Positions 31,418 through 49,691 of a stretch of 64,000 nt of DNA are shown piece after piece. The notes beneath the pieces are model-generated. The model saw nothing but the letters and a program-made list of their open reading frames with translations, was not told the DNA's origin and did not search any database. A program made the translations under genes and the position numbers. The stretch covers positions 62,001 to 126,000 of the forward strand of contig JAZKBU010000003.1 of NCBI GenBank assembly GCA_040388375.1, read 5' to 3'. The DNA comes from Bacteroidota bacterium (GTDB lineage Bacteria > Bacteroidota > Bacteroidia > UKL13-3). Position 1 is the stretch's first letter, and each line of letters begins with the position of its first letter.

Positions 31418-31453
31418 AAAAACGCCACCTTTCAAAAGAAAGGTGGCGTTTTT
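31418..31453. terminator. Bidirectional rho-independent terminator
   Basis: A 16-pair perfect stem (AAAAACGCCACCTTTC / GAAAGGTGGCGTTTTT) with an AAAA loop between the convergent mgtC-like and fumC genes; the stem ends give T runs on both strands. Confidence 0.92.
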
Positions 31454-37065: not shown

Positions 37066-37815
37066 TTACATTACCATACCACCACAAACATTAATAGTTT
37101 GTCCGGTAATATAAGCTGATAAGTCGCTTGATAAGAAAGCAACGCAATTGGCTACATCCTCCGTTGAACCACCACGTTTTAAAGGAATACTTTTAACCCA
37201 TTCGGCTTTTACTTCAGGGGTTAAAGCATCAGTCATCTCCGTTTCTATAAAACCGGGAGCAATGGCATTGCAACGAATATTACGGCTACCTAATTCTTTG
37301 GCTATCGATTTTGTAAAACCAAACATACCAGCTTTTGAAGCAGCATAATTGGCTTGACCGGCATTTCCGGTAATACCAACTATAGAAGATATATTGATGA
37401 TAGAACCTTGTTTGGCTTTCATCATATATTTAGTAGCGGCTTTAGTCATATTAAATGCCGATTTTAAATTGGTATCCAATACTTCATCCCATTGCGCTTC
37501 ACTCATACGCATCAACAAAGTATCGCGAGTAATACCAGCATTATTTATTAGTATATCAATAGCACCAAATTCTTTTATAACTTCATCAACCAAAGTTTCA
37601 CTGGCAGCAAAATCAGCAGCATTACTTTGGTATCCTTTAGCTTTTATACCACTTATTTGATTTAATTCTGCTTCAAAAGCCATTGCCTTTTCAACTGAGC
37701 TGGCATAAGTAAAAGCAATGTTAGCACCCAGTTTAGCTAAATGCATGGCTATACCTTTTCCAATTCCACGACTTGCTCCAGTAATAAGTGCTGTTTTGTT
37801 TGATAGTGTAATCAT
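37066..37815 (-). CDS. fabG: 3-oxoacyl-ACP reductase
   Basis: 249 residues, short-chain dehydrogenase. NADP-binding TGASRGIG (12-19), NNAGIT (91-96), catalytic Ser143/144, Tyr157 and Lys161 (NYAASK), and the C-terminal LSSDLSAYITGQTINVCGGM are all present. It reduces 3-oxoacyl-ACP in fatty acid elongation. TATATTTG on the minus strand at 37840-37847 is a perfect -7 box 24 bases upstream. It appears to head a fabG-VWA-unknown transcript. Confidence 0.92.
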   Translation of the reverse strand: MITLSNKTALITGASRGIGKGIAMHLAKLGANIAFTYASSVEKAMAFEAELNQISGIKAKGYQSNAADFAASETLVDEVIKEFGAIDILINNAGITRDTLLMRMSEAQWDEVLDTNLKSAFNMTKAATKYMMKAKQGSIINISSIVGITGNAGQANYAASKAGMFGFTKSIAKELGSRNIRCNAIAPGFIETEMTDALTPEVKAEWVKSIPLKRGGSTEDVANCVAFLSSDLSAYITGQTINVCGGMVM

Positions 37816-37839
37816 TTCTATAACGTAATTTTAATTGGG

Positions 37840-37847
37840 CAAATATA
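37840..37847 (-). promoter_or_regulatory. -7 box of fabG
   Basis: The minus strand reads TATATTTG, a perfect TAnnTTTG match, 24 bases before the ATG at 37815. Confidence 0.5.
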
Positions 37848-37925
37848 TAAGCTTGCTATTATTTAGTGGTATTTAATTTCAAAAGGTAAAAAAGTAGCCA
37901 TGTTTTAAAATAAATATATCATAAT

Positions 37926-38150
37926 CAGTAAATTAATAAAATTTAAGGAAGCACATAGGGGTTGGTGTTAAGTACTTTGTCATACCTATAATAAGTAAAA
38001 GATTATTTATATTTTATAGCCAATGCCTTGTAATAATAATAGTATAATAGAGTAATGTACTATTTATAGTTTAAGAGCATAGTTGTTTAAAATGAAATTT
38101 ATTTATTTGTTAGTTTGTTTTAAAGGTGATCCGGTAGGGTCACCTTTTGT
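37926..38150 (+). ncRNA. Candidate small RNA unit 1 (terminator-bearing)
   Basis: Non-coding unit in a 658-base gap (37816-38473). It shares with unit 2 the words CAGTAAATTAATA (37926) and TTTATTTGTTAGTTTGTTT (38102-38120), the latter abutting a rho-independent terminator (38122-38148). Between them is mostly A/T-rich diverged sequence. I found no gene of plausible length. The exact 5' end and whether it is transcribed are unknown, so this is a candidate only. Confidence 0.35.
38122..38148 (+). terminator. Rho-independent terminator of unit 1
   Basis: AAAGGTGA / TCACCTTT stem (8 pairs) with a 10-base loop, then TTTTGTTTTT. Confidence 0.75.
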
Positions 38151-38220
38151 TTTTAGTTATGGTTGTAAAAATTAAAATAATTAAAAATTATTTTCTTCCT
38201 TTTCTATCAGTAAATCAAAC

Positions 38221-38380
38221 CAGTAAATTAATAGTCATTAAAATTTGACACACTTAAATTAATACACGTGCAACTATACTATGGGTATAGTAGTCTAAGG
38301 GAGTAACAGTAAATTTGTTTAGTAAGTATAAATTTATTTGTTAGTTTGTTTGAAAAGTGGCCTTCGGGCCACTTTTGTTT
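38221..38380 (+). ncRNA. Candidate small RNA unit 2 (terminator-bearing)
   Basis: Second, shorter unit. It repeats CAGTAAATTAATA (38221-38233) and TTTATTTGTTAGTTTGTTT (38333-38351) and ends in a strong terminator. Within it are a hairpin ACTATAC-tatgg-GTATAGT (38273-38291) and a perfect TAAATTTG -7 box (38310-38317), which would make a transcript of about 55 bases; no -33 element is evident. Candidate only. Confidence 0.35.
38353..38376 (+). terminator. Rho-independent terminator of unit 2
   Basis: AAAAGTGGCC-ttcg-GGCCACTTTT: a perfect 10-pair stem with a UUCG tetraloop, then TGTTTT. Confidence 0.9.
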
Positions 38381-38439
38381 TAAACACCCCACCATATTTT
38401 AATTTAAAACGCTCATTAGGTTTTAAAGCTCACTGCAAT

Positions 38440-38447
38440 TATCTTTG
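38440..38447 (+). promoter_or_regulatory. -7 box of prfA
   Basis: TATCTTTG is a perfect TAnnTTTG box 26 bases before the ATG at 38474. TTAGG about 20 bases upstream may serve as a weak -33. Confidence 0.5.
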
Positions 38448-38473
38448 CGCCTCAAATTGTAAAGCTTAACAGC

Positions 38474-39544
38474 ATGTTAGATAAATTAGAAGCTATTTTT
38501 CAACGATATAAAAATGTAGAAGAAATGATTAGTCAGCCGGATATTTTGGCCGATATGAAAAGATTCACGCATTTAAATAGAGAATATAAAGGTCTTACTG
38601 CAATTATTGATAAATACCATGAGTATAAAAACTTAAAGGCCAATATTGATAATGCAAAAGACATTTTAAAAACAGAAAAAGATGCTGATATGCGCGAAAT
38701 GGCCAAAGCTGAATTAGACGAGTTAGAGCCAAGAGTGCAACCAATAGAAGAAGAAATCAGGATTTTATTGATTCCTAAAGAGCCGGAAGATGCTAAAAAT
38801 GCCACTGTAGAAATAAGAGGAGGAACAGGTGGAGATGAGGCTTCATTATTTGCCGGAGAATTATTCAGAATGTATTCGCGCTATTGCGAAAACCGTGGTT
38901 GGAGAACAGAAGTACTTGATTTTACCGAAGGCTCAGCGGGTGGTTATAAAGAGATAGTAATGGAGGTAAGTGGGGAAGATGTATATGGTATTTTAAAATA
39001 CGAAAGCGGTGTACACCGTGTACAACGTGTGCCCGATACAGAAACACAGGGTAGAGTGCACACATCAGCCGCTTCGGTAGTTGTATTGCCAGAAGCAGAA
39101 GATGTGGATGTTGATTTAAATCCGGCCGATATTGATATGCAAACGTCACGCTCTGGTGGTGCTGGAGGACAAAATGTAAACAAGATTGAATCGAAAGTAA
39201 TGTTAACACACAGACCAAGTGGTATAGTAGTGGTTTGCCAGGTGGAGCGTACACAAAAAGGAAACCGTGAAAGAGCCATGCAAATGTTAAGAACCAAACT
39301 ATACGAAATGGAACTTAAAAAACATTTGGATGGTATTGCCAGTAAACGTAAAACCATGGTTTCTACTGGAGACAGATCAGCAAAAATAAGAACATACAAT
39401 TATCCGCAAACAAGGGTAACGGACCATAGAATAGGTTATACCAAATACAACTTACCCGATGTGTTAAACGGAGAGATACAAGATTTTATTGACCAGTTAC
39501 AAATTGCTGAAAATGCTGAAAAGCTAAAAGATGGAATGAGCTAA
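38474..39544 (+). CDS. prfA: Peptide chain release factor 1
   Basis: 356 residues. The catalytic GGQ is at 231-233 ([11 protein letters not shown]) and the codon-recognition tripeptide of the RF1 type is PDT at 187-189 in [15 protein letters not shown]. It reads UAA and UAG stop codons and triggers peptide release. The segment [15 protein letters not shown] (112-126) is conserved in RF1/RF2. It is downstream of the two candidate RNA units but has its own -7 box. Confidence 0.95.
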
Positions 39545-44483: not shown

Positions 44484-44484
44484 A

Positions 44485-44799
44485 CTAATTTTGTTCAAAA
44501 GTAAGTTCTAAATCACTTACAATTTTGTTTTGCATGACGTGCATTTTTACAATTTCTTCTACACGATCAACCGATACATTTTTATAATAAGTACCCTCCG
44601 GATAAATAACCAAAGCAGGTCCATTTTTACATTCATCCAAGCAGCCCGCACGTTGCGCTCTTACACGGCCTTGTAATCCTTGTTCTTTTAGTACTTCTCT
44701 GAATTTTTGTACTATTTCCATACCGCGTTCTTCTCCACAGCAAGCTTTGCCTTCCCCTTTTTGGTTAGCGCATATAAATATATGTTTTTCGTATTTCAT
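44485..44799 (-). CDS. Thioredoxin-like [2Fe-2S] ferredoxin
   Basis: 104 residues. A thioredoxin fold with four candidate cluster cysteines: Cys10 (IFICANQ) and the CCGEE pair near 20, then Cys53 and Cys57 in AGCLDECKNGPALVIYPEG. This C-x(9-13)-C...C-x3-C layout is that of the (2Fe-2S) NuoE/shethna-like family. It probably transfers electrons in the cytoplasm. It is encoded tail to tail with the preceding secreted-protein gene and 53 bases downstream of the MazG-type gene. Confidence 0.82.
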   Translation of the reverse strand: MKYEKHIFICANQKGEGKACCGEERGMEIVQKFREVLKEQGLQGRVRAQRAGCLDECKNGPALVIYPEGTYYKNVSVDRVEEIVKMHVMQNKIVSDLELTFEQN

Positions 44800-44852
44800 T
44801 CTGGTTTATTGTTCTTTTTAGTTAGCCAATTGTTTTCATTAACAGCCGGTAG

Positions 44853-45179
44853 CTATTTTAGTTTTTCGTTTTCTAAATGGCGGGTAGCATCACGATTGGT
44901 TTTTTTAGCCATGTTTTTTTCAAAAGCAGCTGTTAAATCAACACCCGTTTGATTGGCTAAGCAAATTAAAACCCATAATACATCAGCCATTTCATCGGCC
45001 ATGTCACTATTTTTATCACTTTCTTTAAAACTTTGCTCTCCGTATTTACGTGCCATTATACGGGCTAGCTCACCTACTTCTTCCATTAAAATGGCCGTAT
45101 TGGTTAATTCATTAAAGTACCTCACGCCAACGGTTTTTATCCATTCATCTACCTGTTTTTGAGCTTCGCTTATTTGCAT
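44853..45179 (-). CDS. MazG-like nucleotide pyrophosphohydrolase
   Basis: 108 residues from ATG 45179 (MQISEAQKQVDEWI). The four-helix MazG-type site shows EEVGELARIMAR (Glu-Glu-x-x-Glu) followed by DMADEMADVLWVLICLAN (DExxD). It hydrolyses nucleoside triphosphates, probably a house-cleaning role. The minus strand carries a perfect TATATTTG -7 box at 45193-45200, only 13 bases upstream of this start, which rules out the longer start at 45212. Confidence 0.83.
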   Translation of the reverse strand: MQISEAQKQVDEWIKTVGVRYFNELTNTAILMEEVGELARIMARKYGEQSFKESDKNSDMADEMADVLWVLICLANQTGVDLTAAFEKNMAKKTNRDATRHLENEKLK

Positions 45180-45192
45180 ATTGGTTTTTGGG

Positions 45193-45200
45193 CAAATATA
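45193..45200 (-). promoter_or_regulatory. -7 box of MazG-like gene
   Basis: TATATTTG on the minus strand, perfect TAnnTTTG, 13 bases before the ATG at 45179. Confidence 0.5.
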
Positions 45201-45347
45201 TATTTTAGGCACAACTAGAAAACGTTTAATTTATCACAAACAACATAATTAACAATGGTTTTGCATAGCTGATGAAGCCAAAGGTGGTAAACTTTATTTT
45301 GTTGTTTAGTAATATTTTATTTAATTAATGCCAAAATAATATAGCTA

Positions 45348-48888: not shown

Positions 48889-48910
48889 AGTTTAACTGAT
48901 ATAAATATTT

Positions 48911-48949
48911 AAAAGGCTGTTTCAAAATTACATTTGAAACAGCCTTTTT
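48911..48949. terminator. Bidirectional rho-independent terminator
   Basis: Perfect 16-pair stem (AAAAGGCTGTTTCAAA / TTTGAAACAGCCTTTT), 6-base loop, with T runs on both strands; between the S9 gene and the small minus-strand gene ending at 48968. Confidence 0.92.
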
Positions 48950-48967
48950 GTATAGTAGATAATGAGC

Positions 48968-49120
48968 TTAAAATATACCTTTTGAAATAAGATAAGGTAT
49001 AATTAACCAAAGCAATCCTTTTACAAGGAAGAATATAAAGCCCGCAACGCCAATGCGTTTAAACCAGGTAACCAGTCGGGCAAATACTTTTTTATTATCG
49101 GCCATTTGTGCGTTATTCAT
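48968..49120 (-). CDS. Small single-span membrane protein (50 residues)
   Basis: An ATG at 49120 opens a 50-codon frame ending at TAA 48968: a charged N-terminus with NKKVFARLVTWFKRIG, then one hydrophobic helix of about 22 residues (GVAGFIFFLVKGLLWLIIPYLI) and SKGIF. The hydrophobic segment flanked by basic residues and the placement directly after the ABM gene (stop 49122, 1 base before this start) and before a terminator argue that it is real. Function unknown; by context, possibly connected with haem handling. Confidence 0.65.
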   Translation of the reverse strand: MNNAQMADNKKVFARLVTWFKRIGVAGFIFFLVKGLLWLIIPYLISKGIF

Positions 49121-49121
49121 C

Positions 49122-49451
49122 TTATCTTGAAATAACTTTATAAACTTTAAAGTCAGAAGTCATAGGTGCTTTTTTTCCTTCGGCTTTTGCTTGTCTTATA
49201 TCTTCGAATCCACGTTTGTGGCCTTCCATAAATGCGGGTGAAGTAGTCCAAGTTTTAAAAGATTCTTCACTTTCCCAAAAACTTACTATCAGGTAAGGGT
49301 CGTTTTCAGTTTGTGGTTTTAATACTTGCATGTCTACAAAACCTGGCATAGTATCTATAGCGTGAGCACGACTTGCAAATAGTTCTTCAAAACGAGCTTT
49401 ATAATCAGCTTCACATTGAATGTAATTAATGGCAACAAAATTTTTTTCCAT
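49122..49451 (-). CDS. ABM-domain monooxygenase (HmoA/IsdG-like)
   Basis: 109 residues, one antibiotic-biosynthesis-monooxygenase ferredoxin-like domain. FVAINYIQCEADYKARFEELF, then DPYLIVSFWESEESFKTWTTSPAFMEGHKRGFEDI, the arrangement of IsdG/HmoA-type haem-degrading enzymes, with His at about 81 as candidate haem ligand. It diverges from the HmuY/TonB operon, which favours haem as substrate; other ABM proteins act on quinones, so this stays an inference. A TATATTTG -7 box lies 20 bases upstream. Confidence 0.75.
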   Translation of the reverse strand: MEKNFVAINYIQCEADYKARFEELFASRAHAIDTMPGFVDMQVLKPQTENDPYLIVSFWESEESFKTWTTSPAFMEGHKRGFEDIRQAKAEGKKAPMTSDFKVYKVISR

Positions 49452-49471
49452 GTTATTTAAAATTATGTCGG

Positions 49472-49479
49472 CAAATATA
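49472..49479 (-). promoter_or_regulatory. -7 box of the ABM gene
   Basis: TATATTTG on the minus strand, 20 bases before the ATG at 49451. A TTTAGACTAA word lies about 25 bases further upstream, similar to one arm of the palindrome at 49624. Confidence 0.45.
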
Positions 49480-49623
49480 TTTGTTATTTTTAATTAGTCT
49501 AAATAAGCATAATATTTTATTGTTATGATAATTAGTTATTTATGAATTTCCGTATTTTAAAACAGGATTAAAAAGCGCGTATTGTCATAAAACCGTCATG
49601 GATGTAAAAGTTTTGTAACTCCT

Positions 49624-49640
49624 TTTAGAACGATTCTAAA
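49624..49640. promoter_or_regulatory. Palindrome TTTAGAA-cga-TTCTAAA, candidate iron/haem operator
   Basis: A perfect 7-base inverted repeat with 3-base spacer, 51 bases upstream of the haem-uptake operon. It matches the form TTTAGAA-N3-TTCTAAA that I know as the iron control element bound by Irr, a Fur-family protein, in rhizobia. No Fur-family gene is in the window. A TACCATTG box (one mismatch to TAnnTTTG) follows at 49658-49665. Confidence 0.5.
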
Positions 49641-49691
49641 TAACAAAAAATTGACCCTACCATTGCGGCTCAAAAAACAATAAAAGAAGAT

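Follow-up and report, generated by a model that had tools for sequence, protein, structure and literature searches.

Why should two intrinsic terminators stand one behind the other on the forward strand of a gap whose flanking genes are both read away from it? The question is raised by a 64,000-nucleotide (nt) stretch of contig JAZKBU010000003.1 from a Bacteroidota bacterium (the whole stretch is called the window here, and all coordinates count from its first letter), in which a gap of 658 nt (37816-38473, no strand, 26% G+C) separates the divergent genes fabG (37066-37815, minus strand) and prfA (38474-39544, plus strand), both named by reading and without a family search. Because both flanking genes read outward, plus-strand terminators in this gap close neither of them. 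An earlier note on this DNA had described two related, terminator-bearing units in the gap and interpreted them as tandem small RNAs (sRNAs) derived from an old tandem duplication. Our analysis confirmed part of that observation and lent partial support to its interpretation: we tentatively propose that one or two intergenic sRNA genes specific to this lineage lie on the plus strand of the gap, a reading that falls somewhat short of an even chance and that we consider about equally likely as a pair of insulating terminators without functional RNAs.

A U-rich word is repeated exactly in front of two terminators

The evidence for related units lies in a U-rich word of 20 nt, ATTTATTTGTTAGTTTGTTT, which occurs in two identical copies on the plus strand, at 38101-38120 and 38332-38351, 231 nt apart and each directly 5' of a terminator. 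The 19-base word TTTATTTGTTAGTTTGTTT that had been placed at 38102 and 38333 is indeed there, as part of this longer exact repeat, and the related stretch around the word extends to 28 nt at 93% identity. Repeat comparison and a shuffle test showed that the 20-nt repeat is beyond chance, as none of 2000 dinucleotide-shuffled versions of the gap reached 18 nt and the longest exact repeat among them, seen in two, was 17 nt. Allowing up to two mismatches, the word has four sites in the whole genome, namely the two units and two others with two mismatches each; by reading, neither of these others is followed by a terminator.

Both terminators were correctly described as strong and as abutting the word, by reading as well as by folding. 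Intrinsic terminator 1 (T1; 38122-38152, plus strand) has a predicted stem of 11 pairs (38122-38147) and a T-rich tail, and intrinsic terminator 2 (T2; 38353-38381, plus strand) a stem of 10 pairs (38353-38376), capped by a C(UUCG)G loop, and the tail GTTTT, which places it outside our terminator scan rule of five T within eight bases just after the stem. The gap encodes no protein, as had been stated: none of the five short open reading frames (ORFs) touching it is credible as coding, the four that lie mostly inside it had no Pfam match at the cut-off (one reached E 0.064, below the cut-off), and a six-frame reading of the gap revealed no protein remnant.

The second repeat that the earlier note had relied on, the 13-mer CAGTAAATTAATA, is present at 37926 and 38221, and its repetition is borderline, near chance, since a repeat of at least 13 nt arose in 128 of 2000 shuffles. 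Its core, CAGTAAAT, has four copies on the plus strand of the gap (37926, 38208, 38221 and 38307), two of them 13 nt apart, and may mark the site of a regulator or be fortuitous; in 112 of 1000 shuffled gaps some 8-mer reached four copies or more.

The related part of the two units is short

A duplication of whole units, as had been proposed, did not find support. When the unit bodies were compared, 440 of 500 shuffles were as good under one scoring scheme and 20 of 500 under another, and for the 45 nt just 5' of the word 420 of 1000 shuffles were as good. The bodies are thus without clear homology, and the word with its hairpin surroundings holds all clear similarity. The hairpins are no closer than unrelated terminators, which leaves 20 to 28 nt around the U-rich word as the sole stretch of sure relationship. 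The word is identical at 20 of 20 positions, and 9 of 26 hairpin columns differ (including two gaps) by our own count after aligning both 3' ends. Since the word is identical while the hairpins and the 45 nt upstream differ, constraint on the word is suggested, if the hairpins share descent.

Promoter-like boxes and a predicted RNA from unit 2

The gap contains three copies of the motif TAnnTTTG, one each for fabG, prfA and unit 2. Across the window, intergenic DNA has 1.33 such motifs per kb and strand and coding DNA 0.68. The prfA box, TATCTTTG (38440-38447, plus strand), lies downstream of both terminators, and the claim that prfA has a -7 box of its own was upheld: the stretch around it was matched in seven genomes of the genus, and all four matches inspected are placed before prfA. 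The fabG box, TATATTTG (37847-37840, minus strand), has by eye a similar sequence 5' of fabG in relatives. These two boxes begin 34 nt (prfA) and 32 nt (fabG) from the respective start codons.

The third box, TAAATTTG (38310-38317, plus strand), is a sigma-A-like candidate -7 box for unit 2, with no TTG 16-23 nt upstream of it. Under the -12 to -5 placement of such boxes given in PMC9723704, the RNA of unit 2 is predicted to start near 38322. For unit 1 we found no TAnnTTTG box and no convincing promoter; a motif scan yielded TACTTTGT (37973-37980, plus strand) as a weak candidate for an SM5-like (TAnnTTGY) box of a longer sRNA 1, SM5 being a motif of Flavobacterium psychrophilum (PMC9723704). 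Such TAnnTTGY boxes number 55 on the plus strand of the window and three on that of the gap.

Unit 2 is the better sRNA candidate. Its RNA would be driven from the box at 38310 and end at 38381 (38322-38381, plus strand, about 60 nt by the box rule and folding), with a nearly unpaired U-rich 5' part that contains the 20-nt word, followed by the terminator; the fold of 38323-38382 predicts a single weak A-U-rich hairpin besides the terminator. The U-rich word may have been copied once within the gap and its identity kept because it is the working part. The sRNA would act in trans, either by pairing with A-rich translation starts or by being bound by an RNA-binding protein, while unit 1, with no convincing promoter, may be silent or give a longer RNA. 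Transcription, function, targets and partner of these sRNAs are all features that we infer. Both units have general traits of intergenic sRNAs of Bacteroidota, as they end in a Rho-independent terminator and encode no protein, and the genome encodes one RRM_1 match. A more specific version, in which the word of a local sRNA pair serves as a generic plug for the translation starts of Bacteroidota, A-rich and devoid of a Shine-Dalgarno sequence, and tunes many messages with low specificity, possibly held by the RRM protein, seems to us very improbable.

Separately, locus L201 complements the word exactly over 14 nt, up to a single base ahead of the ATG with which a 226-aa ORF begins; we record this as a lead only.

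Several results weigh against sRNA genes at this locus. Although the perfect -7 box reported for unit 2 is present, by itself it is at chance level, since at least one TAnnTTTG appeared on the plus strand of 1133 of 2000 shuffled gaps. Neither body folds beyond its terminator: the z-scores of the whole units (-2.35 and -3.49) stem from the terminators, because the bodies without them scored 0.11 and -1.05. Of the tandem sRNAs originally proposed, the shared word at two terminators stands beyond chance and two independent genes are plausible, but the -7 box by itself and the structure of the bodies are no better than in shuffles. The word showed no special aim at translation starts, U-rich words in general facing start regions in this genome. 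It is antisense to start regions at 6 of its 26 genome sites (up to three mismatches), and a reversed control word is at 7 of 30; both of its two-mismatch sites elsewhere in the genome are antisense to gene starts, a hint that we dropped as specific evidence because the reversed word gave the same proportion.

The hairpins point in the same direction, being no more alike than unrelated terminators, so that they may or may not share descent. Their likeness exceeded that of shuffles (0 of 1000 as good), which do not preserve terminator form, and in a comparison with 28 further terminators, of which 12 came from the window and 16 from relatives picked by a model of the two units, none matched T1 as closely as T2 does, and four matched T2 as closely as T1 does or more closely. 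A clear relation of the hairpins by descent, with paired changes in support, was considered and dropped after the comparison with other terminators. When both 3' ends are aligned, 11 pairs are counted, of which seven are unchanged, two changed on one side and two on both sides; the 11 include a U-G within the UUCG loop that is unpaired in the fold. The shuffle control for paired changes was weak (125 of 500), and full pairing would be expected of two unrelated terminators as well. The paired changes consequently carry little weight. Finally, at locus L164 (relative G051, 1522-1540) a copy of the word with two mismatches lies, by reading, directly 5' of a terminator just behind an apparent stop codon, an arrangement that would speak for the word as part of a terminator rather than as an sRNA seed.

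The pair in relatives and in other sequence collections

The gap DNA was searched against 97 genomes (its own and 96 relatives), with the best five candidates per genome scored, and against 10 genomes of the genus (its own and nine others), with up to 40 best candidates each. Apart from the prfA promoter stretch, these searches returned short AT-rich matches, and since many matches in the genus search had E of 0.05 or less, these E-values overstate significance in DNA so rich in A and T. Two matches stood out because several genomes had them in common, and we rejected both. Positions 38177-38206 match the 3' end of a SUMF1-like gene (by reading) at L007, L008 and L011, with L006 similar, and 38317-38354 are 85% like a 38-base stretch identical in four genomes of the genus (L175, L176, L177 and L178), which lies upstream of a tatA-like gene (by reading), at L176 about 70 bases before its start codon. 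Both were taken as coincidence, because by eye the 38-base stretch was not seen upstream of the genome's own tatA-like gene and because better-scoring matches occurred in the same search.

A model built from both 3' ends (R1) was run on the genome itself and on 57 family relatives, considering the best candidates, up to 84, in each. In its own genome it returned the two units and then matches of E 1.03 and worse; in relatives it returned weak matches (E 0.004 to 0.09), and alignments were read for 10 matches, six of them from relatives. No second pair comparable to the units was found in the genome itself or among those candidates in the 57 relatives, so the conservation that the earlier note had named as a mark of such RNAs was not seen. 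Around 18 loci of relatives and five weak loci of the genome itself, the fewest mismatches to the word ranged from 2 to 8, with two at L164 and three at L171 and L155, and 69 control segments had 4 to 8; because the loci were chosen for likeness to the word, this is a lead and not a finding. In this family, a U-rich stretch of the kind seen in the word may form part of terminators.

A covariance search against Rfam, also proposed earlier as a check, identified no family: the window had no match at the gathering score, and a lax search of the gap (E up to 10) gave seven matches, the best with E 0.49, which we judged to be chance. The 19-mer has exact matches at four loci in viral contigs, none of which, by eye, has a terminator after the word, and phage and plasmid records contained no match to the gap. 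As far as was searched, the pair of word and terminator appears special to one genome.

The neighbourhood is likewise particular. The best fabG match in eight of the nine other genomes of the genus has 85 to 89% identity (one partial), and the ninth genome, which is 65% complete, has no close fabG match. In those eight genomes there is no prfA within 1.5 kb of fabG, and by reading another gene begins a few hundred bases off in six of them. With fabG and prfA not neighbours in the relatives examined, the gap marks a junction that none of them shares. All 36 rows of prfA relatives with 75% identity or more (about 32 contigs, four being present twice, and the window's own left out) lack a plus-strand terminator before prfA, in a scan that finds both window terminators, takes ORFs of at least 80 aa as gap borders and covers mostly short gaps. 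In the 12 rows of at least 86% identity the nearest ORF upstream of prfA is on the minus strand, as in the window.

Alternative explanations for the two terminators

The strongest alternative, which we consider almost as plausible as sRNA genes although likewise below an even chance, is that two plus-strand terminators with U-rich run-ups keep stray transcription, from fabG antisense or from spurious starts in the AT-rich gap, out of prfA; the RNAs would then be functionless and the word part of the terminator. An insulator of this kind is consistent with the limitation of similarity to the terminator surroundings, with the promoter-like box of prfA just downstream, with the lack of a convincing promoter for unit 1 and with the arrangement read at L164. 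However, it leaves the 20-base identity unexplained, and no relative in the prfA scan has a terminator there, even though the 12 closest rows share the minus-strand ORF upstream. The choice matters: if only an insulator is present, the pair is a routine double terminator, and if it is transcribed, it would represent the birth of an sRNA by local copying of a seed beside a terminator, in a phylum from which few sRNAs have been studied.

The separation of fabG and prfA in relatives, together with the short AT-rich matches to other loci of the genus, would also fit a gap made of debris from a rearrangement or insertion, with the terminators left from a lost plus-strand gene or element. We regard such a relic as unlikely, given that neither six-frame reading nor Pfam (four short ORFs) gave a protein remnant, that phage and plasmid records did not match, and that the word is unchanged. 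Tandem attenuators in a long prfA leader, to which the position of both terminators upstream of prfA on its strand might point, are the least probable of these three alternatives and hardly credible: the promoter-like box of prfA, with matching sequence in relatives, comes after both terminators, antiterminator pairing was no better than in shuffles (137 of 300 as good for T1 and 273 of 300 for T2), and the relatives lack the terminators.

Other gaps and hairpins of the window

Two further gaps of the window, 44484-45347 (864 nt) and 48889-49691 (803 nt), are without an ORF of 150 aa and are possible sites of further RNA genes; the latter contains a strong minus-strand terminator-like hairpin (48948-48911). 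A hairpin of 16 pairs at 31418-31453, which has a T-rich tail on either strand, is likely a bidirectional terminator.

Comparison with known sRNAs of Bacteroidota

Among known intergenic RNAs of Bacteroidota, the predicted sRNAs resemble GibS in kind. However, GibS, as described in PMC7366714, has 145 nt and two seeds and is conserved in Bacteroides, none of which was found for the units. In the same source 76% of intergenic sRNA candidates of Bacteroides thetaiotaomicron have a canonical promoter, and 27 of its 49 high-confidence intergenic sRNAs are termed strain-specific, so that missing conservation does not refute an sRNA here (PMC7366714). The 6S-Flavo RNA (RF01685) is likewise intergenic and had no match in the gap. 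In the whole genome its best score was 21.5 bits against a cut-off of 85, a test that is weak outside Flavobacteria because none of 14 control genomes, one of them a Bacteroides, reached the cut-off.

RbpB is an RRM protein. It is the partner of the FopS sRNAs of B. thetaiotaomicron, in which, according to PMC11697453, a single-stranded 5' seed stretch is followed by a terminator and targets lie near start codons. FopS did not match the window at the Rfam 15 gathering score or the gap at E up to 10, the FopS structure having been deposited in Rfam according to PMC11697453 and its presence in the copy used unchecked. The family has 14 members and is described as highly conserved in Bacteroidaceae (PMC11697453), whereas here there is a local pair in one genome. 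The FopS promoter box is of the sigma-A type, and that of unit 2 is alike but at chance level. In its single-stranded U-rich 5' part followed by a terminator, the predicted RNA of unit 2 is laid out like FopS, the nearest known layout.
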